Source: Branchiostoma floridae (Eukaryota; Chordata; Leptocardii; Amphioxiformes; Branchiostomatidae). Taken from it: 64,000 bases of DNA. Location of the stretch: positions 1-64,000 of the forward strand of contig NC_049983.1 in the NCBI RefSeq assembly GCF_000003815.2, read 5' to 3'. Below, one piece after another: positions 3,018-50,900 of the stretch. The translations under genes were made by a program, and so were the position numbers. The number at the start of each line of letters is the position of its first letter. Position 1 is the first letter of the stretch. Below the pieces are notes generated by a model that was given only the letters and a program-made list of their open reading frames with translations, searched no databases and was not told the DNA's origin.

Positions 3018-6000
3018 GTGGGTTAAAATCCCCTTCAATTTAGATTTTTAAAAATTATTTTGATAGTATGTCAAACATAGCTGTGTTGCGGTCTGCTAAT
3101 TTTTTTATTCTACTCCAACGTTGCTTTATTTGTGTACTTGGTATCTCTTGCAGAAGAATGCGGTATTACAGACAGGTCTACCCGTTCCGTACCTTCTTTC
3201 ATTACAACAACGCCCTCTACACCCTGGCCGGGCACGTCGCTGAGAGGCTAACAGGGCAGTCCTACGAGGCCCTCTTGCGGGAACGGATATTACAGCCGCT
3301 GGGAATGGACGACACAGTGTACCTGGCAGACGCACTGGAGGATGGGGGTTTCTCCAACTTTGCTCAAACGTACTTGACCTATAACAGAACAGGCCATTCG
3401 ATACCGTACAGTGAAGAGGAGTTCAGGTCAGTACCACTGGGCTATATCCCATTTAGCTTCAACAAAGTCCAGTTCAACAAACAAGAACGTGGTACAATCT
3501 TTATCTTTTTGTACTTGAAAACCTTTAAGTTATAACAGAGCCTATAAAAAGGTAAGGCCACACTGACTTCACAATTTTATGAATGACACCCGCGAGCGCA
3601 ATGATTTTCGCCCGTTTAGAAAAAATGTTGGCACATGTCACCCAATAGCTTCCCTGGTCAATTTTGTACTTCCCAGAGGATCTACTTTCCGGGGTAAGGG
3701 GCCACATGGTCAGGGCATGGGGCCACGTCATCCTTGTTTCATTCTTTAAACACGCATGGCAATACAAACATGATTGAAACTGCAACGATTCTCGCTTACA
3801 GTCTTACTGGAGGTGAGCATAAGACAAACCAAGCCTGGAAAAGAATGGACTGGATGTATAGTCCTGCAGTTTAGCCGCATCTTTTTGGCTGGGTTTCTCT
3901 TTTTTTTTCGCCCGTGAGCATTAGTTTTGCAAGGTCTCCAGAGGATGCCATCCTTAAAAGTAAGTCAGTATGGCCTAACCTCATATCTTTATACTTTTCA
4001 CTATCATGCTGTGCAGAATTATCGCTGTGAGACGATTCATCAAAAATCTGTCCTGATTTTTTCCGTTATTAGGCCTCTGAAGTTACATCTACCGGCAGGG
4101 GGCGTGGTGTCCAACGCCGTGGACATGGCCCGGTACATGAAGTTCCACCTCAGCGGGGGGAGGGACACGGTCGGCCGCCTGGTGGTCCCGGAGGACAACT
4201 TACGTCAGACCCACACTGTGAATTTCGTCTCGCCCCGGAAAAGTGCCCTCGACAAGTTGGAACCTGACTGGCCGGTGGAAGCGGGGACGACGCAAGGCTA
4301 TGGATTGGGATGGGGGATCGGCACCTATAGAGGTACTTGCATCCTTTTTCTAGGGTAACGTCACATGTCCAACCCAGGCCCGGTCGGGCTGTATGTGGAA
4401 ACGAAAAATAGAAAATTTCATGTATACGTAAAAACATACACAAATTTTGTATCATACTTTTCGTTCCGAAAGGATGCCCTGTAGGGCCCGGTCTGGTATG
4501 TGACGTAGACCTTTTAAGCTACTGGCAACAAGTGCCTGTCATTAAGTGTTTTAACATAGCTTGAAATCACGGTTAACGGTTAGACTCATTTCCATGTATA
4601 CATCGGCTGTACGTAGGGAACATGTCTTTTCGGACTTAGTGTCAGTGTAGATTTCTGTACCAAGAAGCAAATGTTCATAACCAGCACCGAAAATAATAAA
4701 GTCTCCACCCAACGTAAGCGTGGATTCATAAAAAGTTAAAGTCTACGGAAAAACATTGTTTCCTGGTTGTAAAATGAACGAATATATGGTACGTCCTTGT
4801 TGTGACAGTGACAATTCTTTATAACATTGCAAGGGGAGCTTCTGTTGTCCAATATTTTCACCGTGTTACAACAACCATTACTACTTCAAAGTTGGGAACC
4901 AAGTTATTGCCTTCGCCAGAATGGCAGAAGGTTATGCAAACTGTTGAGCCAGGGCTTTTTGGGTCTGTATGTAGGTCAACAGCATATAACTTAAGAAGTT
5001 GTGAATGGATTTTGATGATATTTGGTAGGTGTGTAGCAGTTGTGTAAAGGTTAGTCACGTTTGAAAATGGTATACCTGGTGTTTTCCTACTGGTCCCCAG
5101 GGAACTTTGTACGTAAGTGCGTTTGGCTGTAAACAGCATAACTCGAGATGTTGTTGATGGATATTAATGATATTTGGTGGGTAGGTAGGGGTCACAAAAT
5201 TAAAGGTCAAGTTCGAAAATGGTATACCTGGCGTTTTCCTACTGGTCCCCATGGAGCTTTGTACGTAAGTGCGTTTGGCTGTAAACAACATAACTCGAGA
5301 TGTTGTTGATGGAAATTAATGATATTTTATAGATCAAGGATCAAATGCTCTTACAAAGACTTGACATAAGTAAAGGATCGCAAGACGCAGAGAATAGAAA
5401 CAGGAAATTTTCTGCTGTTGATCAAATGGTTTGTTTCGTGTCTGAACTTTGAGCTTGATTAAGTGTGAAAAGGGGTAATTAGATAACAGAAGTTTATCAT
5501 GACATTTGCTATGAGATAAACATTTTACGCGGTTTTCATGAGTATGACCCCACAAATTTGCCCTTTGACAATAGCTAAAAAAATCCCGAACATTACATTG
5601 TTTTTCGCATGGTTTAACAGTGGATATAAGAGTGGACGACCTTACATCTGCTCGAAACACTAACCATAGCGAGAGACGAGCACAGAGACAACTCTCTATC
5701 TTTATGGCTACCTTAGCCAGTCCCCCTAACGACCTGGAGGTCAAGGAACTAGGTAGGTGTGCCGATATAACGCCAGTTCACCTTTATCCATTGGGTAACC
5801 TATATCCGTTGCTTTTAAGAACAGAGTATTTGGGGATGTCACGTTGATGGACATTAGTTTGAAATTGCAATATTGCAGTTTAAAACTATCACCCTCCGAC
5901 TTGTTGTGCCTAAATACACTGTTTTTAAAGAGCAACGGATATAGGTTACCCAATGGATAAAGGTGAACTAGCGTTAGAACTAACGCGGTGTCGCACAGAG

Positions 6001-9000
6001 TTGGTACGGATTCGGAGTCCATGTTATTCCAAGGATGCCGTCGGTGTTTGGTGGAGGAGCGCCCTCTGGCGTGTTGAAGGTAAATGACTGCAACAGGCAC
6101 GAGAAGAACAGGAAAAGCTCCATCCTGGCCAGCTGCTCACCAAGACACACACGGCGGCCTGGAAATAAAGAATACTCAGTTAATAGAATTTTCATCAATC
6201 CTTGACTACTTTTTGATACTAGGTAAACTCACGTACCTCCAAATTGTCGATAGCTATAAGTCTATCTTGATCACGGAGTGACCCAGTTCTCGCGAGAGTT
6301 GCGAGAACTGGATGGAGACTTGCGTGGATCTTCTGCCCCTCACCCACCTCCTTGCGGAGTAGAGGTAAGTAGGACATGTACAGCTCCCAGCCATCATTGC
6401 GGTTCAGCTTCGCACCTTCCAACTGGATGTGGACTGCTTCTTTGATCTTTCTGTGGGCCTTTAAACGTTAACAGATTCCAAAATAATAAGGGAAAATCCA
6501 TTTTATTCTTGGTCGATAACATCGACGGTGTCTGAGATGGTAACGATGTGGCGCGACTGGAGCAGATGTTGTCTCTGTGCGGATTTGCCGTCCTTGTTGT
6601 CTACGGAGTTTTGGTGCTCAGCGGTCCGTTCACCTAGTGATCTTTCTGTTTCGCCTACGTAAACCTCACCACACTCATCACACGCTATTTTTTTTTCTAT
6701 TAACTGTGTACATACGTGACTGATGAACCTCTTCAACGATAAAGAATACTTTGTAGTAAGAAGGCAGACAAGTGTAGAATAGAGTGTGTTCTATAACTAG
6801 GCCATGGTTACTAGTATATGGATGACATCCTACAGAAAACCCCAAACTGCTGCAAGCGTGCAAATAAAAAACTTTTGTCTTTAGTATGAAATCTAAGTCT
6901 TCAAGAAGGTATGCCCAAACGACAGATTTTCCATTTTTGTTCTTTAACATCTTCTTCTTTGGCTTTGGGATTAAGTTTGCGTCTTCCTATGTTTTTGTTC
7001 AACTAAGGGCATTACGTTATATATGTCAAAAAGTAGTTACTCAAGCAACTGCTTGTCCTGCCGGCCAACCTCGTGGAGGGCGGGAGGGCGCCCTCCCTCC
7101 TCAACGGCGGTCTGTTTGACAACCTCGGCTTTCTCGGCCTCGTCGCTCTGGGCACCGCCTACCTCGAGCTCAACACGCTGGACAACGTGCAGGGCCTCAC
7201 GCCGTCTGGCTACCTGGCAGGCTACCTAGGTTTCGACCCGCTCGGTCTCGGAGAGGGAAAGATGGATCACATGGCCGACGCGGAGATCAAGCACGGACGT
7301 GCGGCAATGCTCGCGGTCGTGGGGTTCGCCGNNNNNNNNNNNNNNNNNNNNNNNNNNNNNNNNNNNNNNNNNNNNNNNNNNNNNNNNNNNNNNNNNNNNN
7401 NNNNNNNNNNNNNNNNNNNNNNNNNNNNNNNACTAAGTTATAAAAACACGAAGTTGCCCAGTCGCTGCATGCACTTAGTTTAGTTCCCATGTTTCTGAAG
7501 CAACAGTACAGCAGGAATATACAATCCTGTGATATGCCTCTATACCTGGGTTCCTTTGGGAATGTCAAACTTCTGCACTTTGACGTCCTGTGTGGTGGAG
7601 TGGGGAATGGCTAAGGGAACCAGGGTGCGGATCCGCATAGTCTCCAGCAGGCAGGCGTTTACGTAGGGCAGCCGGGAACGGTGGGACAGGGTGGGCAGAC
7701 TCGCACCAACAACGGCATCTAGCTCCTCATGGACCTGTGTTGACACAGCCATTGACAATCTTAAAGCTACGTAATATTTGGACAATACAAAAAGATTTTC
7801 CTGCCATTTCTTTACACAGTAAACGAAATGTACCCTCTAGTATTGAATACTAAGTGTATTTCTGTACCTTATGTTGAATGGCTGGATTCTGGGTTAAGTA
7901 GAGCAGAGCCCACAGCAGAGTGTTTCCTGTCGTCTCAGTCCCGGCCAGAAACAGGTTCATGGCCATGTACATGACATTCTCCTCCGTCAGACCCTCCACC
8001 TTGTCCTGCTGGTCAATCTCCAGCAGGCAGAAATCCAGGAAGTCTCGCGGGTTCTCGCGATGCAGGTGTTCGCGACGGCGCGAGATCTCCTCCCACATCA
8101 CTTGATGTATCTTCGAGACGTGTTGTAACAAATCAGTACCCGCTCTGTTCACTGGAGAAAACATGTAGTTAATAGAATTTTCATCAATCAGTGACTAGTT
8201 TTTAAAGGTAAACTCACGTACTTACAAATTTTCGATGGCTATCAGTCCACCTTGATCACGGAGTGACCCAGTTCTCGCGAGAGTTGCGAGATTGATGAAA
8301 ATTCTATTAACTGTGTACATACGTGACTGATGATTCTCTTCAACGAGAAAAACATGTAGGGAAACAGGAATATGGTTCTGTCATCGATTCGGAGTTTTGC
8401 TTTGAAAGCTGGCAAACTTTAGGGGGGGGGGGGGTCAGATGATCTACACAAGCCTGGCTTAGTCTCGTGCTCTCTCGCGTGATCGAGACTAGGCGATTCT
8501 CCGTGAGCAAGATGTGCTGTTAGACGAACTTGACCTTGAGTAAGAAACAATTTACCTCCAGGAACAAACCGCAGGGCCGGGAAGACGCTGATGATTTGGC
8601 CGGCGGCAAGTTCAGTCACAACGGCAGTAACGGCCTTCGAGAGCTCCTGAAACGTCTCATCCTCGTAGTCGTAGCGCTTCCCGAACACCATGGAGCAGAT
8701 GACGTTTGCTACCGTCACGGTGACGTCATGGGCGAAGTCAAAGGGCTGTCCTTCGTATTCTGCCACCTGAAAAAGTTGACACATTGTGGACACAAGCTGG
8801 TGGACATACCGACCGATAAGTATCTAATACCAACTCAAAAACGAACTAGAAACAGTTATGCCTACAAGTACCAGAGGTACCAACCTAGGATTGATGTGTT
8901 CGAAAATTCGTATTTTCCCAGAACTAACGTTATTGTAGAGTGGAATATGTTATCATCAAACACAGTAGGGGCATCTTCTCTGGATATTTTTAAAGAACAC

Positions 9001-12000
9001 TTGCAGATAGATGTGCAAAAGTTAGGTGTGATGAATCGTTCAGTGTAATACAACCAGCTGCTGCCGCGCCGCGTGCCTGTTCAGCTGGTGTGCCAAAGGG
9101 GTGGTTATACCGGCTATATAAATTCAGATACAGATAGATCTAATATTAGGCCATTTGCTTGCTTAAACAAAAAAGAATACCAGACTTTTCAACATGGTCA
9201 ATGTCTTTGTTAAATCCTACCCTGCTGCGGAGACAGTTGGCTTCCTCTCGGATGTTGTCCTCGATGCTGCCACGTCCAACCTTCATACCCAGGTTCTTCA
9301 GGGCAATGGTGGCAAACCTCTTCCTCTGTCTGAACCCGGGCCCCCAACGTGCAGCAACCATATCTTGGGGAACAAAATAAATATAGCGGACTTCTTATGT
9401 CTCTGCAGACTTATCTGCAGCGTATCTGAACATGTCACAAGCAAAGTAGTGCGTTCTGGATATCAAAGATGCCCTTTGATCGGGTTATCAAAAAGTGCCC
9501 TTTGCTCTCTATGCGTTTACTGGAGCCCACACACCGAAGTATCGCTATCTCAAACCAAACCAAACAAACAAAACAAACCCCGCGCGGGGAGAACAAAGAT
9601 GGCGGCCTTCTGACCACAAAAAAATCACATGCAAGATAGTTTCCGCCTCCTAAGACACTATGCTCACCACACAAGTGCACGTTCCGGATAAAAACGTCGG
9701 ATCGCATTCAGAATATCCAGAATGCGCTCCTTCGCTTGCGACGTGTTCTGGATATCCCAGAAGCGCTTTTGGGATAAAAGCACATTTAGGATGCAAGTCT
9801 ATCCCAGATGTGCTTCTATCCCAGAAGCGCTTCTGGGATACAGGACTATTTGGGATATAACATGGAGCCCGTCTGGATATTAAAAGGAGCTTGAAGGAAT
9901 TTGTAGAGTCACCTTTTCCGTCACCAGCAATCGAATCAAGCATGTAGATTCGCGGCCGTGACGCGAACAGCTCGGACCTGTCCACGAGCGCGTCCTTGAC
10001 GGCAGTGTAGCCGTTCAGAACCACCACATCTTCCATCCCCATCCTGACGGTGAAGACGTCCCCGTACTGCCGCCTCCACGCCGTCAGCTTGAGGTGAGGC
10101 GCTCGGCCTAAGGCGAGGAGGTGCCCGAGAACAGGCACACGTCCTGCCGGGTAAGGAGGCAGGTTCTGGGAACGCCTCAAAAGTGTACATGTCAACAGAA
10201 AGGCCAAACAGAAGATAACGAACGTCTGCAGAGTCAGCCCAGGGGCCTGCAGAATCTCATGGACGGACTCAGCTATCCACTGGACAGCACCGGCCATTTT
10301 CTCACGTTTTTCTCACGTGGGTGAACTTTGAAGTTTGCACTTTATTTCACCTTTAAATCGGCGGCACATTATATACATAATAAACATGACACAGTTACAC
10401 GTTAACAAATGGCATTTAACGATATAGGTATAAACAGGTATGCGGAGATTGACTAATCGGTACATACGGTCAGATTGGTAGCCTGGGTACCATACCATCG
10501 AGGCGCTCGAGTTGCTCTTCGGCGGTGTAGGGGTGGCCGCCCGTGCAGTTAATTGCTACAGGCGAGGGCCGGGGGGTTCTTACGGGGTTAGGTTGATTTC
10601 GTCGCGTAAACTCCAAAGGCCGGCTACAAGCTCTGGCGGCCAAATCTCAAAGGGCAGATAACTAGACAGACTGACAAAAGCAGGTCGGTGCCTTAGCATT
10701 GGGCCGGGTAAAGCATCCCAAAGCCGACCCGCGGAGAATGGTACCCAGGTTATCAGATTGGACACCTGTGGGAATTATGCTCTAATTTACGACAACACGC
10801 CAGGTTTGTGGAGCAGTAATGCAGAGGGAACAAGTAACATCTCCGTCTGTGATCATCATCATATCTTTCCGTGTTTGTGGATCTCGGTTGGTGACAAGAC
10901 CATTTTACATCACTGTTGCCTCGTTGTCGCTTCACATGCAACATCGTAATATGACCCAGTGTGTTAAGAACCAGGTGACCTATGACCTAGTTGTTACCTT
11001 CGACAAGATTGTTTTCGGTTGAGCAGCTGTGGTTGTGGGGCAAAACTACGAAAACCTCCCCCTCCTTTTTCAGCACTGGAACCCAGTGCTGAAGATGGCG
11101 TCAGCACTGGAAAACGAGTGCTGACGAATATTCAGCACTGGAAACCGAGTGCTGAGAGATCGGGAGACTCTGAGATATACAGTAATTTGGAATTACGATA
11201 CGTCCTTTGCTTTACTACTAAACTTAAGACATTCCTGGATTATAAACGTCACCTATGGCAGACCTCATCCTTTTGGAAGTTCAGCGGCGCCTCTTCAACG
11301 ACAACAACAACGAGGAGGCAGGCTGACGGTCTGCCTCACAGCACCCCGGCCCTTTTCAGGGCCACCCAAATCTTTCCCAAAAGGGCTATATCTATCACAA
11401 TCACACAATAAAGTTGCTTATTGTTATAATGACAGCTATCCCTTAAACACCTCTTACACATATACATATATCTACCTTTCAATTACACATGTACAACGAA
11501 TAAAATACACAACTTTACACGAAGTTTTCTTTGCATGAAGTAGCTTTAGTCAAATTTGCGTCCTTTTACTAGTACCGCTATCAGTACTTTATAAAAAATG
11601 TGCAATAAAGGTCTTCATTCATTCATTCATTTTATAAATGATATATATCCCTTATACAGTATACATATATTCAATTAAATAACGAATGGATAGCACAACT
11701 ACAATTTTCTTTGCACGAAATAACTTATCTTTCCTTCGAATTTACGTCTTGTACCCCTCTCAGCACTGGGAGATTCCAGTGCTGGAAGGACGTCAGCACT
11801 GGTTCGCACATCGTTCCAGTCCTTTAAAGACGTCAGCACTCGTTTTCCAGTGCTGAAGATTTCATAGCACTGGTTTTCCAGTGCTGAAGTGTCCTCGAGC
11901 ACTGGTAAATCCAGTGCGGAAGGCGAGGTTTTTGTATATCAGCACTCGGTTCCAGTGCTGACGGCAGTTTCAACCAGTGCTGAATGACCTTTGCCCTGAC

Positions 12001-15000
12001 CCGGCCCCGATATCCCCGGATTTCAGCACTGGTAACCGAGTGCTGGCGGCAGTTCAGCACTGGAAAACGAGTGCTGACAGAAGTTCAGCACTGGAAAACG
12101 AGTGCTGAAAGAAATTCAGCACTGGAAAACCAGTGCTGAGGGAGTTTCAGCACTCGAACAAGGCCGATCAGCACTGGAAAACGCGTGCTGAAAGAATTTC
12201 AGCACTGGAAAACCAGTGCTGAGGCCGTTCAGACAATTGATTCAGCACTGGAACACCAGTGCGGAAGGCGAGGTTTTCGTAGACTTGCGGTTGTGGGTGT
12301 AAATGTAGGTCAATCAACGTATATTGAGAAGCTTTTGATGGATTTTCATGATATCTGGTATTTCAGGAGCGGTTGCAAAACGGAACGTACAGTTCGAAAG
12401 AGGTTGACCTGACATTTTCCGTCGGTACTGCAGCGGGCCGAGTGTGTGTGCCCGTTTATTTGCAGAATGCAGAACTCCAGACGTTGCGGATGGTTTTGCA
12501 TGATATTTGGCAGATATGTAGAGGTTGGGAAAAGGAAGGTCAAGTTCAAAAGCTAAGTAACAGTGAACATTATCAGGCACAAAGCATGCAAATCAGGGTC
12601 TTATTTACATAATATATGAGGAAATGCTATGATAGCCTTGTTTGCTAATAGAAGACTTTCATACTTTGGACAACACAATAATTAAAACATATTTTGTTAT
12701 TTGGTTAGACAAAGACGATCAGCTGATAATTTATGCTAATGAGGACATTATTTGCATAATGACTGAGAAACATTTATAATACATCAGCCGAAAAGGTTAG
12801 TTAAGATTTTAATCTAAGATTTCACTAATAAAGGGAACTCTACAGCCCAGTTATATCTACAAATTTTAAGAACATGACCATCATAACATCAACAATCTAT
12901 AAGGTTTCTTCATAATAAACCTTGTTAATTTGGTGAAGGTGCGTGGAACTCTAGATCAGATTAACATTAATTCACCTTTATCCGCGGATTGACCTATATC
13001 CGTTGCTTTCAAAAACAGGATATTTAGGAATATGATATGAAGTCCACGGATGGCGGTTACAAACTGTGATATTTTGAAAACGTTAAAATTTGAAAACATA
13101 ATCCGTAGAGTTGACATTACAAAGTTGTTAAAAGCAACGGATTTTGGTTACCCGCGGATAAAGGTGAATGTTTGCCCTCAGGATACAGACGACTGGAACA
13201 CAGCGGTGGTGTGGCAGGCTTTGCTTCTCTTCTAACCCTGTACCCTGACGCTTCGGGAGGAGTCTATACCTCCGTCAATGGTCCCAGTACGGCAGGGGTG
13301 GCCTCCGACGTCCACGAAATCATCCACGGCATGGTCGGAGATATCCTCACAGGTACAAAGTTTGATTACGAAATTGAGCTTTGGACATAGGAGTTTTCTT
13401 TTACACAACCATTTTTCTCACCTGCCTGTCAGACATCTTTCGAAGTATAGCTTCTAACTGGAGTTCTGCTTGTAGCCGATGTAGGTGGCGCTTTTCCGGC
13501 GAGAACACTATCCCAAACGTGGCTTAGCTTGTACCACCCCCCCCCCCCCACCCCCCTTCGTCCCGGTTCGTCACTAGGGTGGACTTCCTTACCTAAACTG
13601 CTTCTTGATTTCAACGGATTCGTCTGTTGTCTTCTCTGTCTATAACCTTTTCGCCACCGCGAAAGCGCAACCTACATCGGCTGCATATAGCGGCGAGAAG
13701 CAGAACTCCAGTTAGAAGCTCAAAGAAAGATCGATGTCTGACAGAAATCGAAACTTCAGCAGGTGAGAAAAACTGGTTGTGTAAAAGAAAACTCCTATGT
13801 CCTATGATCCATCAACCTGATGAAATTATTTTCGAAAGCTTTACGTTGTTCCAACACAAAAAAAGAAAAAAACTCACCGTAAAATTTCGGCCGATCTCAC
13901 CAACCTTCGTCAGATATCTCACCACGTTCCGGAAGTCGGATGTGTGATGACGTCAGGAGCGAATCGTAAATGGCGGGAAGGCGGAATCTACCACCTTCAC
14001 GGTTCAATGAGGGTTGATGACACCCCCCCCCCCCACGTCACAAACCAATATTGTATCTTATCCAAAATGCGTACTAAATTTGTGTTGCAACGAAGCTTAA
14101 CTTCGTGATTATGTCTCCTACCAACATAGATGAGTTTTCATTCGAAGGTACAAAGTTTCTAATCTCAAGGTAGAGGTTGGGATCAAAAATGGTTACGTTT
14201 TCCCCGTTTCTGTCACAGATCGTCTCCCTTAATTTTGGAGATACCAACGTTGTAACCTCGAAATTCTTGGTTGGATGAAAACAGACCGTTGCAAACCCAT
14301 AGACAATATTTCAAGCCGAGAGATAAATGGCATGGAGCTCCCCCCGACATTCCTCCTGACTTCTTACCGACTAAGGTTGGTGCTGCTAGGTTGGGAGTAG
14401 CCAGGAACACACACTTTTCTAGCTTCAGTTCGTTTCTCTGGTTACATCCGAGCAACATATGACCTTGTCACCTTTAAGTTGTCAAAAACGTGCAGAGAAC
14501 TTTTAAAAAGAAGGAAACCTCACTGAGCAACGCCCAACCACAGATGGGCTTAGTTAGGTGCAGTCTCACTGCACTTGCGTCAAACTTGTGTCACTGCGGG
14601 GTTCCTTCACAGCGTCACTGTTTTAGGATTTTCTAAATTTTTTTCAATTTATGATTTAGGTATTGTGTAATACGAAAAATTATGACTCAGAAGACAAAAA
14701 ATACACAAAAAAGTAAGAAAATTCGTTCTTTATTCCTGACATTCGTCGAGTATCTTTCGAACCCCGCAGTGACGCAAGTGCAGTGAGAGTGTACTATGGC
14801 CTGGAGAATGTCGGGAGACCATGGAAGGCTATGTGTGACTGATGGCCTTTAGAAATAAGCAAGAGAAAAACTGAAATTTTAATGTCTATTATTTCTTTTG
14901 CTCACCAATAGGCAAGGACCACTGGCTAAACGCCACCACAGCCTGCACGTATCCTGAGCCTTGGTGGACGAGACCGGAGCCCAACAGCACCGTCCTCCTC

Positions 15001-25999: not shown

Positions 26000-27014
26000 T
26001 TAGTGGTTTGTGGCCCCTCCTGGCCGATATGTAGCCCCTCCAAAGTGGTGAGAACCCCCCAACCCCGCCCCCGCCCCACCGTCGCGGTGGTGGTCTCTAT
26101 GCCTCATTGAGGGTTGCCTGCCCCTCGGACTTACTTTGGTGGTGGTGCCGCCGTATCGCGACGACATCCGCATGGAGCTGGACCTCTTGACGCGATTGGT
26201 CTGCTCGCGGTCGAACTCCAGGTCCTCCAGTCTCTGTGTGAGCGCCAGTTTCTGCTGTATGGCCATGCGCAGCAGGGAGTTGAGCGTCTTCTTCTCGTCC
26301 TCCGCGGCCGCCAGCTGCCTCTGCATCTCGTCCAGCTGGCTCACGTACTCGTCGCAGCGACTCGCGAACATTGCTCGCAAGGAAGAGAAAGTGGCCGCAT
26401 CTTCCTTGAGGGCCTTGAGTTCCTGACGAAGCTTCATCATGGTCTCGTGGACCATGGACTTCTCCGACTCGTATTTGCTCTTGAGGTTGGCGAGCGCCAC
26501 CTCGGCCGTCTGTTTGTTCGCCTTCAGCACCGTGCGTAGCGTGGCGATCTGTTCGCGTTTCGCGCTGAGGAGGGATTTCAGCTTCAGCACCTGTTCCTGC
26601 AGCTCGGCCTTGTCCATCGCATCCGAGGAATCCACTGGCGACCGCTGGCGCGCAACCTCCACCATGTGGTCGATTGCACGCTTGAGGTGCCTAATCTGGT
26701 CCCTGACGGTTTGCAGCAAGTTGTAGCACGTGGTGGGGTCTCCCTTGACCTCCCCGTTCTGTGCGGCGGCCCCCTCGGGTCCCGTCTCGGACGTGGGGCT
26801 CTCGGGGCTGGACGGAGGGGAGTCGGTGCCTCTTCGTCGGTGCGCTGCGGGGTCGGGCGTGCTGAGGCCGGAAGGCCTGATCTCCGCCATGCTGTTTCTG
26901 CGGGCCAGCGTGGGGCTGGTCTGCCTGCCGTGACCGTTACGGGATGAGAGGATGGGCATCGATCCCGCTCTCAACCTGTGACCGTGACTTTTTCTCTCCT
27001 TCTTCATACTGTTC
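26000..27014 (-). CDS. BicD: BicD exon 9 (cargo-binding coiled coil and C-terminus)
   Basis: Acceptor TTGTCCTGCAG before 27014, phase 2. Codes for a Ser/Pro-rich linker, [20 protein letters not shown], then the highly conserved C-terminal coil (residues about 625-770), and a Gly/His/Arg-rich tail to TAA at 26000. An internal AAA|GTAAGT donor at 26135/26134 could end the exon after TTTK. Confidence 0.95.
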
Positions 27015-30000
27015 CTGCAGGACAAATAGAACGTCAGCCTTAAGCTTATGATCTCTTTTTACATAAATCTACATTTGTACTAAGCATATAAAGATAATGC
27101 ATAAACACTTGTACAAGTTGAAAAGACAAAAAAAATTTAACAGTTCTTGGTGAATGTCAATGTGCAGATGTTGACACATCACTTTCAGTGTAGTATTTGT
27201 TGAAAGATATACACGAATAAATTCTCTCCTTCTTTTTACTGTTCCTGTGGGACACAACTAGGAAGAAAAAAGTTTGTGAATCAATCTCTGCCTACCGGAA
27301 ATTTCTCCAAAGGCATAAATTGTACCTACTGTCACTGACATACCTAAAAACATGCAATACCACATACATACGAACAAGTACACGAACACACAGACAGACA
27401 CACACACACAAATACACACACATACAATGTTCAAATATCTGCTACTGTCACTCCTCTAAGTTGCAGTGCTATTAGAAAGGGTTGCAGTCAAGAATATTGT
27501 AAGACATGTCTGACACCTTTCGGTATAAATGCAGTTGACTGTTCTACTATACAGTCAAACTTGATCTAATGACCACTTGCACAAGACGACATTCACCTCA
27601 AGATGACTGCTTTTTGACGGTCCCCAAATTTCCCCCATAGACACAAGTATGACACTGTACCTTCTGGCTCCCTTGGCAGTTCTCATGTGATCCAGCATGA
27701 TCCTGCTGGGCGTCTCCCCGTTCACCATGCAGATGTGGTGGTACAGTTGTGCGAGCTCCTCGCTAACCGTCACCAGCTCGTCCTGTGTCATGTTGATGCT
27801 GCTCTGGCCCTCGCTAGCCAGCTCGCTCGTCGAACACAGCCTGTCCTCCAGCTGGCGGATGGTCTGTTTGGGACAGAAGTGAGAAAACTGTCAGATTTGT
27901 CGTGACTTCAGCACTAAAACGGCATTGCTGTAATGTATAACAACTGGAGTCGGCACGCATGCATGCCAGTTTGGGGGGATGGCTGGGGACCAATTCATAT
28001 ATGAAATGCAGTCACTGGAGTCACCTAAATTCCAAGCAGATGTATTGGTCAGGCTTGTTTTGTGTGTGTTTTCTGTATTTCTATGTCTCCCTCTGTATCA
28101 ATGCACTCTTTACAACTACATGTACATGCATAAGTAGAGACAGACTTAGAAACCAGAAAAGACAACAAAGAGCCTCAGGTCAAGCTTGAAATGTATGTTC
28201 TGGCTGCGGATTAGGAAGAATGTCTACAATAGAACCTCGGCTATCAGACAGCTTTTGGATCAATGCAATCTTTTTCAAGATAACTAGAGGAATTGGGCTG
28301 GACTGCCAATTCATTGAAAGAAATTAAACAGTACTCGTTAGAAAATGCTTACATATAACATCAACGGATTAACCATTTTAAAGACCAGGCTAAAACTGTA
28401 GGGTCTAGTTCACCAGCTACTAGTCTTGTCTTTTATCGTGCAAATGTTTGAAAAACTCAATGTCACTTCCATGTAGCGTAGTCATACAACAAATCAGTGT
28501 GGTACAAATGTACAATAATTAACTTTTCATATCATTCCGGTTAACAACTAGCCTGGGTACCATCCGGGTAGTAGTTTGCTCCCATGTTCGCTTCTGCTAC
28601 CCATCCGTGGCAATGTACATTCAAATCTTTTGGTGTTGACGTCAGTTAATGAACGAATTAAGGAATGATTTATACTTTTAGAGCGCTCTGTCGAACAGGT
28701 GTTGTAAACAGGAATTCCAACACCTGTTCGAATACAGCGATCAATTTAACCATAATTTTCAAGTGTCTTGTGTGTCTGGTTAGGCACCAGTCAGCGCCCT
28801 TGTTAAAAATTTTGGACGAGAATCAAATACTCCAGGTATTAGAGATGTTGAAGTTTCTAAATGGAACAGGAGAAAAACAACTCTATATAATGTTTAATAA
28901 ACTAAGTTTGGAGAGAACTACTTCCTGGATGGTACCCAGGCTAGTTAACAACAGTTTGTTGCCTGTGGTAGCAAGGAATCATGGTACAACATTGAAGAAA
29001 CACAGTTCATCTGGGTTCCTTGAATCAAGTAGGCAGTCTTACAAGATGTTGGAATTTCTGCATCCAATAGTGGCTTCCTGATAAATTGGAGGTTCTAATA
29101 ATCGAGGTTGTACTGTTCTTATTGCCCTAGATCTCTCATTTGCAGGAAACGATCACAACATTTCAACTGTTTCATGTAACAGTTGAGGAAGAAAGTATCA
29201 ATGAATGGAGTTGGCCTAGTTGTTGAAAAAGAGTAGCAAATGCAAGACAAAACTTGAATAAGTATTGCATGTTGGGTCTGCCTTAGATCATGACTTGTAC
29301 TCGTTACTTAAACATCACACCATTTCACCAATTGAAATGTGCTAGGAAACAAACCAGAAAAGAAAAGGTAAAATCATCGTTAACTGAGCATGTGATGCAC
29401 TAGTATGTATGCTGCACATTCTGCTTGACCGAACGACAAACCAAATGCTTGGTAACCTGGCAGTTCTCTTGCTCACGGTTAGACGGGGGGAAGGCTGAAC
29501 GGTAAACAAAAGTACAGGCAAGGACAGGACAGGTAAACTTTTGTTCATGACACTCCAGCTCACAGAAAAGGGTCTAGAATTTGGTACATTTCTCTGGTTT
29601 GACATTAGTAGCAGGGGGTGAAAACAGTGAGTGGTAAAACATTTCAAATGCCGAAGCCCTAAGTGAATGCAAGACAAAAATTTTCACAGCAAGAATGCAC
29701 ATGTCATGTACAATTTTAAGCAAACATAGAGTTAAACGCATTCATGGAGAGGGTCAAGCAATAAGCCAGATACATTTGTAAGCGTAAGGGCACTGAGTGA
29801 AGGAAGTTTGTACTGGTACATATAAAGCAATATTGGCCAGCAAAGCTTTGACCATGGCCCGATATCATCACAATTTTGCTGTGGGCAAATGTTGAGCCAC
29901 ATTTATGTTAGTGCAGTAAAGAACCAACATTCTCTTTACCAAAGCAAGGCTTGGCGTATCTACCTGAGGTGCAGGGGCTGTGATAGCGGCGGCGGCGGTG

Positions 30001-32963
30001 ATACTAACAAAAAACGTCTACACAAGCCAAGTTACTGGATGAGAAAAGCTCTTTAAATGTTGAAAGCATCTTCCATGACGAGCTAATTATTAACGGTCCT
30101 GACCTGTAATCTTTCAAGCATTTGTCTGTGGAGTTGCGAGACTTGAGCCTCCAACCCATGAATGACGGATGCGGACTGCCTCAAACCCCACTCCTGATAG
30201 AGGACGAGAGAGAAACCCCTCAAGGAATCTTTACAGACCAGTTGGACGTCTCAAGTATTTCCTTAAACTTCTGTCTTAATAATTTGTATTGGCTTCTTTC
30301 AGTGGCAATGGGACCTGTCGACAGATGCCTTTAAACCTCTTTTTGTATCTTTGCATTACACAAAGGGACCATAAAGTTCCAAAATTCGGCTTCTTTGAGG
30401 TTGATCGTGCAGCAAGTTTAATACAAAGAGAACGTAGTAGTAGTAGTGGCAGAGCTTGCAAAGCAGTGCATTTGTTTGCCATCTAAAAGTGCAAGTTATC
30501 ATAAACAACACAGAGAAACGGCTAAGGAGAGTGCACACTGTGCTGTGTGTCCAGTATCGTGACAAGTGTAAAGACATATGCTGTGCAAACTCGCATCTCG
30601 GTCGAACTGTAGACGACGACTATTACAGTAAGCATTATGGCAATAGTGCGTGTGTATATGCTTGAAAAAGCGAGTATACTTTAGGGCCGAGACTTCTTTC
30701 TGTTTGTTGAAGTTTGTTGGGTACAAACATTTTGGACCAGTAAGTTACATGTATGATACTACGTAGATGAACGTGGCATGGTTACCTGTCTTGCTTCGAT
30801 GTTCCTCTTGTTCAGAGCAGACATCTGAGCTTGCATCTCGCTGAACCTGGACTTGTGTCTCCTGTCCTCGTCTTCCTGACTCTCCTGAAACATCTTCAGC
30901 TCTGACTCCAGGGTCCTCAATTTCGCCTGCAACATTTCTTTGCTCTCGTGGTCAACCTGTAAAATTGTGGGGGGACGACTCTTATCATTCCACATGATAG
31001 TTAACAGTTCAGTACTATCAAGAGTATATAAGAGTTACTAGTATGTACTATGACGTAGGGTCCTCAATTTCGCCTGCAACATTTCTTTGCTCTCGTGATC
31101 AACCTGTAAAATTGTGGGGGGGACGACTCTTATCATTCCACATAATATCATTGGGTAACAGTTATTATCTAGCATATATTTACTATAAAGCATATATGAG
31201 AGAAATGGATCATTCTCTAGAGTACTCAATTTCAACATTGGGAAATCCGATGACTCTTATCATTCCACATAATAGTTAACAGTTCAGTACTATCTAGAGT
31301 ATATGAGGGTTATGTACCATGACGTAGGGTACTCAATTTTGCCTGCAACATTTCTTTGCTCTCATGGTCAACCTGTGTAGTTGTGTGTGTGTGGGGGGGG
31401 GGGGGGGTGTTCTTATCATTCCACATAATAGTTACTATTTAGAGTATATGAGAGTTATGTACCATGACGTAGGGTACTCAATTTTGCCTGCAACTATTCT
31501 TTGCTTTATAATCTAATGGCAAAGTAGTGGAGGAACAACTGCACATATAGCATTGGCAGTTTAAAAGTTTTGTGTCTGTGATATCTTTGTTTCCTTCTGC
31601 TATTGGAGAGAAAGATATCAGCCAATCACATTGACTCTTGACTGCAGACGACGACGTGATTGGCTGATAACCTTCCCTTCAACAACAGGAGGGGTAGTAC
31701 CTGATTGGCTGATGGCTGGCCAGCCCAAGGCAGCAAGAAGAATAGATCAGGTATGATACATACAAGTATGGTATGACTTCAAGTACCCCTTGCAACTAAA
31801 ATGTGTTACCGTACATGTATCTCAGAGCAAAAGACGTAAAAAAAAGGAGGGGCCTGCGTGTCTTACCTTTTTCTTGGTGCCTTCGATCTCCGCAGTCATC
31901 TCAGACATCTTTAAGTCCTGCTCGGACAGTTTCTGCTGAGACTCCTGCAAAGTCTTCATCAGGGCCGCCTTCTCCATCTCAACCTGGGGGAAATTTGCAT
32001 ATCATGACATCATTTAAAACCCCACAATCCATCTGATTTTCTTTCTGTCACTTGTAAGTGTTGTATGACAACTGTATACATATGTATTTTTGTAGCCCTT
32101 GTCAATTAAACATTGAGCTGGAGATTTGGTGCCAGACAAGTCCTTGTGATGTTGCCGTTACAATGGGAAATTGAAGCATTCAAGGATCTAGAATGCAGGT
32201 TTCCACTCACCTGCCTCAACTTTAAGGCATGTCCCTGTAGCTCAACTGGCAGCGACCTCACAGTTGAGCTCCTACAAATGTATATGCAACTCGTTGGTAA
32301 CTCACGTGACCCTAGTCCATGTCCTGGGATGAGGACTGAACTGTCTTTCGGAAGGGACGTAAAATGGGGGGCCTGTGTTCGAGGAGGTGACTTGTGCAGC
32401 CCATACGACACTTGCTGACCTACGTACCACAACGCACTACAAGGTAACAACTCACCTGCTTCAACTGATGCTTCAGCTTCTGGATCTCCGACATGTGAAG
32501 TTCGCTGAGGAGGTCTGAGACGAGGCTGGGCCCCGGCTTGGCACCGTTGGTCTCCTCGTGGTAAACAATAACAACAACAACAACAACAACTCACCTGCTT
32601 CAACTGCTGCTTCAGCTTCTGGATCTCCGACATGTGAAGTTCGCTGAGGAGGTCTGAGACGAGACTGGGCCCCGGCTTGGCACCGTTGGTCTCCTCGTGG
32701 TAAACAACAACAACAACAACTCACCTGCTTCAACTGCTGCTTCAGCTTCTGGATCTCCGACATGTGAAGTTCGCTGAGGAGGTCTGAGACGAGGCTGGGC
32801 CCCGGCTTGGCACCGTTGGTCTCCTCGTGGTAAACAACAACAACAACAACAACTCACCTGCTTCAACTGCTGCTTCAGCTTCTGGATCTCCGACATGTGA
32901 AGTTCGCTGAGGAGGTCTGAGACGAGGCTGGGCCCCGGCCTGGCACCGTTGGTCTCCTCGTGG

Positions 32964-32995
<32 letters not shown>

Positions 32996-35900
32996 TCACC
33001 TGCTTCAACTGCTGCTTCAGCTTCTGGATCTCCGACATGTGAAGTTCGCTGAGGAGGTCTGAGACGAGGCTGGGCCCCGGCTTGGCACCGTTAGTCTCCT
33101 CGTGGTAAACAATAACAACAACAACAACAACAACTCACCTGCTTCAACTGCTGCTTCAGCTTCTGGATCTCCGACATGTGAAGTTCGCTGAGGAGGTCTG
33201 AGACGAGGCTGGGCCCCGGCTTGGCACCGTTGGTCTCCTCGTGGTAAACAACAACAACAACAACAACAACAACTCACCTGCTTCAACTGCTGCTTCAGCT
33301 TCTGGATCTCCGACATGTGAAGTTCGCTGAGGAGGTCTGAGACGAGGCTGGGCCCCGGCTTGGCACCGTTGGTCTCCTCGTGGTAAATAACAACAACAAC
33401 AACTCACCTGCTTCAACTGCTGCTTCAGCTTCTGGATCTCCGACATGTGAAGTTCGCTGAGGAGGTCTGAGACGAGACTGGGCCCCGGCTTGGCACCGTT
33501 GGTCTCCTCGTGGTAAACAACAACAACAACAACAACAACTCACCTGCTTCAACTGCTGTTTCAGCTTCTGGATCTCCGACATGTGAAGTTCGCTGAGGAG
33601 GTCTGAGACGAGGCTGGGCCCCGGCTTGGCACCGTTAGTCTCCTAATGGTAAACAATAACAACAACAACAACAACAACTCACCTGCTTCAACTGCTGCTT
33701 CAGCTTCTGGATCTCCGACATGTGAAGTTCGCTGAGGAGGTCTGAGACGAGGCTGGGCCCCGGCTTGGCACCGTTGGTCTCCTCGTGGTAAACAACAACA
33801 ACAACAACAACTCACCTGCTTCAACTGCTGCTTCAGCTTCTGGATCTCCGACATGTGAAGTTCGCTGAGGAGGTCTGAGACGAGGCTGGGCCCCGGCTTG
33901 GCACCGTTGGTCTCCTCGTGGCCACCGTCCCCCCGACTGCCCGCAGCGGCGGCGGCGGCGGCCTTGTCGTTGTCGTAGGTGAGATTGAGGGCACCGAGAG
34001 TGTCGTGACTCCAGCTGGAGAAGGAGTCGATGCTCATGAGGGAGTTGAGCTCGCGGCGCAGGCTCAGCTTCTGTTCCCTCTCCTCCTTCAGGGTGGTCAG
34101 GGCTTCTTCAAGCTGCCCAAGGAAAGATGGAGAGGCACTTTAAGTACAACATGTAACGCAGGGTTCTAGCCAGCCGAATTTTTGCAGCTGGGGACAGACA
34201 AAAATTTTGCCCATTTCGGACGAAAATCAGCATGTAATGATATTTTGCAAAGATCTCCAGAAATTTAGCACAGATGCCGTTGAACCAAGCTGAGTCTACT
34301 CTACCAGCAAAAATCTGCCCCTCAATATGCAGGAAATAGTGTTTCAGAGGGTCTTGATTTCAATAACGCCCTTGGATTGTTGCGCCTTCCACCCTCGACA
34401 GGATTTCCATTCAAAATGCCGGGAAAAAAAAATTCAGGCTGGCTAGAACACTGATACTGTAACAATAAATGTATATTGTTATAAATGATAGTCTTGTAGT
34501 TGTGTTTGTGTGTGTGCAGGGAAAGCCATGGGACAGGATGTTAAGGGAAAGAACAATAACCCACCAAACAAGAATCTCTTTCATACTTTCTTTTCTGGTA
34601 AGTGAACATGCAAGTGTGACTTCGACAGGTGTGTCTATGAGGTGGAGCAGAATACACGTATCCTCAACTACTAGAGATACTCTTTTATCTCAGTTGCCAA
34701 CTAGTAGACACTACTGGAGGCTCTAAGATCTTAAGTAAGGTGCATGTACAGTAAGCCATGCACTAAAATGTGTCCAACTCTCAGCCAGTAGCACACGGGA
34801 CCCAAGCAGCACATGCATGCATAATGTAGTCCCAAAGGTACACTGCACAGTGCAAAGCACAATTTTGGACAGACCTTCAGTATAAACAGTCAAGCTACAT
34901 TTGTAGACACATACATGTATGGGAATCTTATAACTACAAAAGAAACTAAGTATGAAACTTATAATGATAATGGATATTGCAGGAAACGGAACGTATTTTC
35001 TCAAGCCAACCAAACTCAGTCTCAGTTCAGTATACGGAAAATCCAATTTGAACACAACAACATTCTTTCATCGTTGTGTTTTATCGACAAAATAACTTCT
35101 CTTTGCAGCAATGTGCCAAATTCAAGGAAGCCTGGAGCAAAACCAGCAAAGCTGACATGTAACAGGTCATTCGGTGTAAATACAACTGCGTGCCTGCGAA
35201 GCTGGTGTGTTATGCCGAAGGACGGTTAAGCTGCCTATACAAAACATAGTCTGAGATAGATTTAAGGGAGCAAACATGCTGTCTTAGATTTATTCAGCCC
35301 AACGTTTGCAGGCAATACCAGACACAAGAAGCAGATCTGCTTTCAGCATGCCTTGGTGCAAAGCGATTTTGTTTCTCCGTGGAAGGATAAGAAAAAAAGC
35401 GGAGTTTCCCTGCTAGTGGGAAGACAGGTTCCACCCACCTTCGGCAAAACCTCACCGTCCCAAAGAGAGCATGCAGGGAATGAGCGATGGAAGAATTCGG
35501 GAGAGGTCGTTGACCCAAGTAGGTGACAAAGACAGACAGCTTCCAAGATTAACTCTTGCTGCGCACGGTCAACAGGTTTGTAACACGGACAATCAGTCTA
35601 CGAACTGGCATCTTCCCGCGTAAAACATAGCTCGAAATAGCTAGAAACGCCTCAATTTGCAGCTAATTTTTTTCACAATTTTCTTTGTAACATTCCTAAA
35701 CTTACATGAATTCAAGTACTTTATTAGCTGATTTTCTGTGAAAAATGTGTTTGAGTTTTGAACTTCAAAATCTTCCTTTTCTTAAGCATGAGAGCTGTCG
35801 ATTGTCACCGAAAAGAGCCAATGCGGTGGAGTATCAGTTTTTAACTCCAGAGGTTAGTACTAGTAGTAGTACAAATGTAACATACATACACGCATACCCC

Positions 35901-47900: not shown

Positions 47901-50900
47901 CTGACATCCTCAATTGAGGCAAAGCATGATGACTTTTCAAGGAACTAATAAAAAATAATAATATTAATAGTACAAACTGAAGTGCATGTAGTGTTAACAC
48001 ATTGATGTACAATCCACATTGTAACACAACTTTCTAAATTCATTTCAAAAATTGTTGGGACTCAATTATCAGCTGGAATTTGCCACAGAATTCTTAAAAT
48101 TCTATTTGTAGCATTTTTTTTTCAATTCTATTTCCAAAAGACCACCCTGTTGGTAGACTGGCCTCTTCGAAAGCCATGTTGTGCCTTGAGCAAGAAAAAT
48201 CCAGAAATACTGGCCTGATAAAATCAATGAACTGGCACTACCGTTCCGCAAAACGAGTAATTGTGCTGATAGCCCAGATTTTGATAACATTCCAAGACTG
48301 CATTTTATGACGTTTATAATTACTGCCCTTCCTGTCATTTTCGAGTGGTAACGACTGACCGTTAGTGCAAACCAGGGTGCCAGTTTTCCGCCACTACTGG
48401 CATTACCACTTTGGTTCAATGTTTCGTCCGTGTTAATATTTCAGCTATGCCTCTCTTCTGGGATTCTAGCCAAAAGATTTCTGACGTCAACGCATTTTTA
48501 CGCTGACAAGTTCTAAAATTCTTGTTGCAGTGATTTTTTCGTCTGTGTCAAGAGTATATTTAACAGTGTTTGCAAAAGGCAATACATTGTACATATCATA
48601 GCAGATATTTTCCAATTCTAATCTGTCCTAGGACAACCTATAACAATCCGAGATTCTGCTAGTACTAGTAGTAGTAGTAGCAGTGTTTCCGCCAGACCTC
48701 AGCTGGGAGGCCGTCCACCTTGGGGCGCGAAAACCGCGAAAATTAAATTTAATTGCAAAACCGCGAACATTAAATTTAATTGTAAAACCGCGAAAATTAA
48801 ATTGAATTGTAAAATCGCGAAAATTAAAGTTGATGGTTAACTGTCGCAAGAAAAAACAAAACAACTAACGTCCGATTAAGGTATCTCGGTTGGCTAAATT
48901 GGCATTTTGACCTTCCACTGTTTTCTTATTAATAGATTAAGAAAGAATGGAGCCGTAACGAATGTTGATAGATGGGCACTAGAGAATTCTAATTCTGATT
49001 TTTTTTGGGCCGAATTTATGACGTCATCATTTTTATTACCTCTGATATTATTTTTTTCTATGACAAAATACAGCACTTTGGTACATACCACTGTAATGAA
49101 ACTTCGTTTTTCGTTGCATAATGATGGAAGCTACAAACGTAGTGTTGCGCAAACTGATATCTCCTAATGATCTGTAGTAATTAGAAAATGTTTGTTTTCA
49201 TCTAATTGAATCNNNNNNNNNNNNNNNNNNNNNNNNNNNNNNNNNNNNNNNNNNNNNNNNNNNNNNNNNNNNNNNNNNNNNNNNNNNNNNNNNNNNNNNN
49301 NNNNNNNNNNNNTTAGTAGATATCAATTTGCGCAACACTACGTTTGTAGCTTCCATCATTATGCAACGAAAAACGAAGTTTCATTACAGTGGTATGTACC
49401 AAAGTGCTGTGTTTTGTCATAGAAAAAAATAATATCAGAGGTAATAAAAATGATGACGTCATCAATTTGGCCCCAAAAAATCAGATTTAGAATTCTTTAA
49501 TGCCCATCTATCAACATTCGTTATGGCTCCATTCTTTCTTAATTCATTAATAAGAAAACAGTGGAAGGTCAAAATGCCAATTTAGCCAACCGAGATACCT
49601 TAAGTTCAGTGCCGAAGTGCTATGATCTGTGCCGCGTACCGGTATGCAGCACCGAACGGGTACTACGACTTTTAAAACGTTCTAGAAACGGTTCTTGGAC
49701 TTTCAAAAAAGAAATAGCATTTGTATATATTCTCTTTTATGTTGTAGTATACTTATAAATCATCTAAAAACTTCCAAAGATCGAGAAATTTGCGTTCAGA
49801 AATGACGAAAAACATCGTCTATCGGCGACAGTGAGCGTAATGGCGGCCGAAATCCCGCAATCTCACGTGGTGACTTCTCGCAAGATCTGGGAAAGCTAGC
49901 GACGTCACGGGAAACTAGCGCTGTGATTGGCTAGGATACACAACAGCTACTGACCGCCATTTTTGATGCGTATTTATCCCGAAAATTTCTGCCGTTTTCG
50001 GAGATTTTGCGGGCTCAAAACTCATATAAGAAGGAACCAAAGTTATACTTGATGTTTTTTACGTCCATCACCTCTTATGTGAACACTTTATTTTTCCGCT
50101 GTGTTGCCGATAACGAACTTGAAAGAGGTTGGGGATTTCCCGTGCCAAGCACCCGGTGGGAACATGTTTCTCAGATCATCGTGTTTTGTTTTGTTTACGC
50201 ATTACGATGATTGATGATGAAAACAGAGACTAAAGTTTTTAATATCTAGACAAAGTTAGTGTGTTTTCTTATTAGTTATCTCTCCCAATTACAACTATTA
50301 GTTTGTAGTGTAATATCGAGATCGACCTACCGCCAAGTTTTCGAAATGTGGCAGGGAAAATTCGCATAACTGAGACCTTGAAAAACGGGTTTTAATGAGA
50401 TTATCGTATGCAAAAGGCCGCCGACACACATTGTCAACAATCATAACAATAGCAAAACAAACAGTAAGCGGCTTTCTGACTGTGGACGGCGTCCCCGAGC
50501 GTCTAGCTTCAATACAAAACACAAAACTGCGGTTTACATTTATCGACTTTGTACAGATTTCTCGGCAAAATGTGGGTCGCATTTTTTTTATGAGGACGGC
50601 CTCTGTTTGCGTTCAAGCCATCCAAAACGAAATGAGACCGTCAATGGACGGGTGGACGCCCCTCTGGCGGAAACACTGAGTAGTAGTATAGGTTGGGTCA
50701 GGGTACACCAAACTGGACATGCTAACCCTAACCCAATATCCAGCGCTAGCAGAATTGCAGAATGTGCTTGAAGTTGGACAGATCCCAATCCAATATCAAA
50801 TCAAAACAGATTCTAGTTTGTCTTAAGACAGATTGTGGCCACAATCTGTAATGGTAATCTACACAGATTGTAGAACAGATCCCAGTTTGAATTCTAATCT

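Follow-up and report, generated by a model that had tools for sequence, protein, structure and literature searches.

Does the lancelet assembly studied here carry an algal light-harvesting protein (LHC) gene, or part of one, inside an animal cytochrome P450 gene, and if so, did the animal acquire it or was it joined to animal DNA on the way to the assembly? If true, algal nuclear DNA in the germline of a chordate would be very surprising. The locus also calls for caution, given that the tip of an algal gene at a contig end of an animal assembly could be turned by automatic annotation into a false claim of transfer or into a false exon. The whole stretch of DNA analysed, referred to as the window, comprises 64,000 nucleotides (C5:1-64000). 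The assembly to which it belongs, and which was the one searched, has 431 contigs and totals 513,431,437 bases.

Homology of the open frame

The features that define the fragment are:

7052..7331, plus strand: foreign stretch of 280 bases, putative internal fragment of an algal LHC gene (PF00504; PDB LHC proteins; single occurrence in the assembly search)
7208..7330, plus strand: predicted LHC membrane-helix region with LGFDPLG (frame translation; PF00504)

A frame of 91 codons occupies 7058-7330 on the plus strand. It contains LGFDPLG, is open from stop to stop from its frame start at 7037, and reaches into a 100-N gap, in agreement with the original prediction. Shuffling its bases 10,000 times leaves the frame open in 11% of cases, so the openness of the frame was not counted as evidence. 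The concern that the frame is open by chance was set aside for the reason that homology, to PF00504 and to PDB proteins, carries the case, and not openness.

The PF00504 profile (chlorophyll a-b binding protein, Pfam) matches 7058-7330 with an E-value of 6.6e-12 and 46.7 bits, the curated cut-off being 22.3. The alignment covers residues 51-90 of the product and profile positions 7-48 of 162. It corresponds to a single stretch of the profile in a frame cut by the gap, rather than to the complete protein with three membrane helices that full family membership implies. In the PDB, the product of 7058-7330 matches 509 distinct sequences at E <= 0.001, and the best 60 of the 509 are all named light-harvesting or chlorophyll-binding antenna proteins, in a ranking whose leading long chains owe part of their score to the addition of repeats. 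The protein search against LHC families that had been proposed as a check thus returned LHC matches. It is vanishingly improbable that these matches come from a protein of the host resembling LHC through chance or convergence: the open frame, and nothing more, speaks for it, while the PF00504 score lies above the cut-off by the margin given, no relative was found in the assembly, and the frame is truncated at the gap.

The fragment shares the GFDPLG ... EIKHGR.AML region with algal LHC antenna proteins (e.g., chains 9kc5_7, 9m4f_6, 7y5e_32, 8wm6_k and Lhcr8 6l4u_2), and its portion before the GFDPLG region aligns to the segment preceding what we take to be the last helix. It differs from these proteins in being a 93-codon internal piece only, and no near-identical sequence was found. 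On this homology, the foreign stretch is predicted to be an internal piece of an algal LHC gene, 93 codons long, whose frame enters from the junction at 7052 and is cut off by the gap at 7331.

With the EIKHGR part left out (residues 15-71, piece 7100-7270), 174 PDB sequences matched at E <= 10. Among the matches listed (the best 60 of the 174), the top chains are 9kc5_7 (E 1.6e-5), 9m4f_6, 7y5e_32 and 8wm6_k, and weaker matches to Lhca chains are present too. The matches to this part span several antenna types, with an E-value of 1.6e-5 at best and a RecA chain in fifth place (E 7.7e-4), which is a match by chance. We take the source organism of 8wm6 to be a cryptophyte, and assume that the Lhca chains belong to the green lineage. 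The structure 7y5e is red-algal, according to PMC12716418. A red-lineage donor for the fragment may be proposed from these matches as a lead only. The LHC/FCP family named in the original prediction holds up as regards LHC, which both PF00504 and the PDB return; FCP in the narrow sense was not borne out, given the matches of the specific part are to several kinds of antenna protein, including the red-algal 7y5e.

The 58 residues of 7037-7210 yielded no LHC protein in the PDB at E <= 1, with just two chains returned, SAKe6DEref and SAKe6DR. No relatives of the fragment were found in viral contigs, prokaryote genomes and phage records, sets in which algal nuclear genomes are not expected, and among the titles listed by literature searches none was on the LHC fragment.

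Base composition

The fragment was described beforehand as very GC-rich in poorer surroundings, and this was confirmed: 7058-7330 has a GC content of 0.663 and a GC3 of 0.835, in comparison with a GC content of 0.417 for the entire 64,000-nt window. In terms of GC3, 76 of the 91 codons of the LHC frame are counted, against 284/419 in the neighbouring P450 pieces (Fisher p 0.0023). The CpG observed/expected ratio is 1.03 in the LHC frame versus 0.62 in the rest, and among the 300-base gap flanks in the window (n = 12) the LHC-side flank alone exceeds 0.52 GC. As GC-rich or richer are 16 of the 6076 gap-free 273-base segments, with starts at 26591-26751, in a BicD frame. Because the BicD frame is richer, GC was not taken as proof of foreign origin; the contrast in composition is supporting evidence and is not decisive.

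The BicD frame is itself a long, GC-rich frame on the minus strand at 26003-27058 (PF09730, E 8.4e-103), and contains the richest 273-base segments of the window in terms of GC.

Junction with the host repeat

Three features describe the left-hand side of the fragment:

6780..6991, no strand: dispersed host repeat; numerous contigs carry diverged relatives of it (assembly similarity search)
7032..7051, plus strand: 20-base word belonging to a dispersed repeat of the host (exact-match count in the assembly)
7051..7052, no strand: junction between the host repeat and the putative foreign stretch (host match ends; exact copies diverge afterwards)

When 6985-7331 was searched against the assembly, three other matches were obtained, which contain host bases only and end at 7049, 7051 and 7051; no second DNA copy of the foreign stretch was found with this query. 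Exact matches to the word at 7032-7051 number 346 in forward and 382 in reverse orientation across the assembly (728, its own copy included), and its reversed control has 0. All 30 other distinct copies among the first 30 loci of the 728 matches, which are all on contig C1, continue as GA[T/C][A/G]T. The sequence of the window turns algal-like at 7052, directly after the host word. When up to 4 substitutions are allowed, seven of nine loose copies continue as GAT, the two others being L007, at 4 substitutions, and a copy located in L011, at 1.

Since 30 of 30 other exact copies examined continue differently, the host repeat is broken mid-element at 7051/7052, and the sequence changes abruptly there, inside the repeat, from that of the host to a foreign one. 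The foreign stretch had been given a start at 7058, and this is corrected to 7052 by the point where the host match ends and by the exact copies of the word. A natural end of the repeat at this word, which would favour a real insertion, was considered and rejected, given that all 30 exact copies examined run on.

The flank 6780-7060 presents 42 matches including itself (40 of the 306 candidates were scored), and the furthest-reaching of these ends at 6991. A local search of 24 host loci returned a 90% match to the 21 bases of 7052-7072 in L027 (E 0.014); this match, which falls within the fragment, is taken to be due to chance.

PF00504 has a single match in the assembly, the LHC fragment itself. 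Photo_RC (PF00124), which was positive in one of 14 control genomes (Synechococcus elongatus), has no match in the assembly. With PF00124 unmatched and PF00504 matched nowhere else, the assembly shows no sign of bulk algal contamination, which fits a rare chimera and does not prove it.

These searches also bear on an error of the pipeline, in which haplotype merging or scaffolding attached an algal contig, or a piece of one, to a host contig with no chimeric read involved. The window's assembly fits the 2020 B. floridae assembly. According to PMC7269912, the latter was produced with ARACHNE from approximately tenfold Sanger shotgun sequence of one diploid animal, after which haplotypes were merged by HaploMerger2 and HiRise scaffolding was applied; the same paper states 489 Mb of contigs. 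Such merging and scaffolding would leave room for an error of this kind, and the site does adjoin a 100-N gap. However, no N separates host and algal-like bases at 7051/7052, so that the join is internal to the contig, and neither PF00504 nor PF00124 has another match in the assembly. We consider this error very unlikely.

Contig end and the interrupted P450 gene

To the right, the fragment meets the following features:

7332..7431, no strand: 100-N gap, contig join (N run; P450 profile 364-406 not found nearby)
7543..7836, minus strand: P450 open frame, profile positions 295-363, right of the gap (PF00067 E 4.6e-19)
5983..6228, minus strand: P450 open frame, profile positions 407-461, last piece, left of the gap (PF00067 E 3.6e-14)

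The foreign stretch ends at 7331 and touches the gap. On the right-hand side of the gap, 7499-7560 matches contig C4 and 7516-7560 matches contig C18, while 7432-7498 matches itself alone. The P450 gene is encoded by the minus strand, with frames from 10312 down to 5983, and its pieces match PF00067 in order at profile positions 1-83, 118-203, 206-301, 295-363 and 407-461; by eye, and not by profile scan, the frame 9149-9394 resembles the exon for positions 84-117. The LHC piece is antisense to this gene and lies between its exons, in accordance with the position inside an animal P450 gene that had been claimed for it.

Profile positions 364-406, expected in 7540-6161, gave no match at E <= 1 in the 12 frames scanned, all of at least 25 codons and clear of Ns, and no P450-like piece was seen by eye in the three-frame translation beside the gap. 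Because this part of the profile was not found in 7540-6161, it is probable that genuine host sequence, with at least one exon of the P450 gene, is missing at the gap.

The contig end is also where a real integration has to be weighed, i.e., algal nuclear DNA in the lancelet germline, non-functional, within a repeat copy in a P450 intron, the contig happening to end inside it. In the assembly, the LHC stretch continues directly from host DNA and, so far as searched, is single-copy, as expected of integration. Nevertheless, horizontal gene transfer is judged by two junctions, and the assembly holds no right-hand one, the stretch being at a contig end. The 91-codon frame is intact even though an integrated copy would be functionless, its composition contrasts with that of the host, and PF00504 has no second match in the assembly. 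According to PMC9642861, subsequent work on genomes and transcriptomes contradicted the nearest precedent, the claimed transfer of algal genes into sea slugs. The Elysia chlorotica claim treated there is similar in that an algal photosynthesis-related gene was reported in animal DNA, and differs from the present case, in which a single truncated fragment lies at the edge of an assembly, in an animal that is not known to have stolen plastids. Integration is likewise highly unlikely in our judgement, although it ranks above the pipeline error.

Two further observations concern the P450 gene and the gaps. In a P450 intron, a minus-strand frame at 6506-6790 matches GIY-YIG weakly (PF01541, with an E-value of 0.017 that does not reach the cut-off), and is perhaps what is left of a Penelope-like retroelement. 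At 48876-49603, an inverted repeat with 168-nt arms that are 96% complementary, and a further 129-nt pair outside them, surrounds the 100-N gap 49213-49312, i.e., a palindrome is located at a contig join.

Origin of the fragment

Given the LHC homology, the lack of a second copy, the abrupt junction in the middle of a repeat, the position at a contig end and the missing P450 piece, we read the LHC stretch as an assembly artefact, with a probability of roughly 94%. Counting against this reading are the two loose copies of the host word that do not continue as GAT, the short host match to 7052-7072, and the lack of a close relative in the collections searched. Most likely, the stretch is neither a real genomic feature nor an animal photosynthesis gene, and the fragment is without function in the animal.

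The artefact may have arisen as follows. A very small number of Sanger reads or clone ends, perhaps a single one, would have been chimeras of the host repeat and eukaryotic algal DNA, or else an overlap between the two would have been called falsely. The resulting tail, which lacked support, would have been kept by the assembler at the contig end, where it forms the final 280 bases, and scaffolding would then have set the 100-N gap after it. A low-coverage chimeric clone or read that leaves a repeat would be expected to end a contig with a few hundred bases of foreign DNA, followed by a gap. We infer that host and algal DNA were joined in a clone, a read or the assembly, and not in the animal, and that the algal DNA came from gut content, from a surface alga, or from carry-over in the laboratory or sequencing centre. 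Captive amphioxus receive algae as feed, according to PMC3753313, and carry-over in the laboratory is as plausible a route. The original prediction had the DNA of an ingested microalga joined here during assembly. The join is retained, on account of the single copy, the abrupt start in mid-repeat and the contig end; ingestion is one possible source among others, since carry-over in a laboratory or sequencing centre would look alike.

Terminal contamination chimeras screened with FCS-GX, as presented in PMC10898089, share with this locus a short foreign stretch at a host contig end beside a gap. The contaminants tested there are of 1 kb, whereas the fragment here has just 280 bases. The artefact chiefly concerns the curators of the assembly.

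Other repeats in the window

A tandem array is located at a BicD exon, at 32307-33972, where a 300-nt reference copy has 13 matches with spacings mostly of 127-139 nt. The units of the array carry a reading frame, and the array represents a minisatellite that bears an exon or else an expansion introduced by the assembly. At 11070-12229, clustered units of approximately 31 nt (TCAGCACTGG...AGTGCTGA) occur in both orientations and contain internal palindromes.
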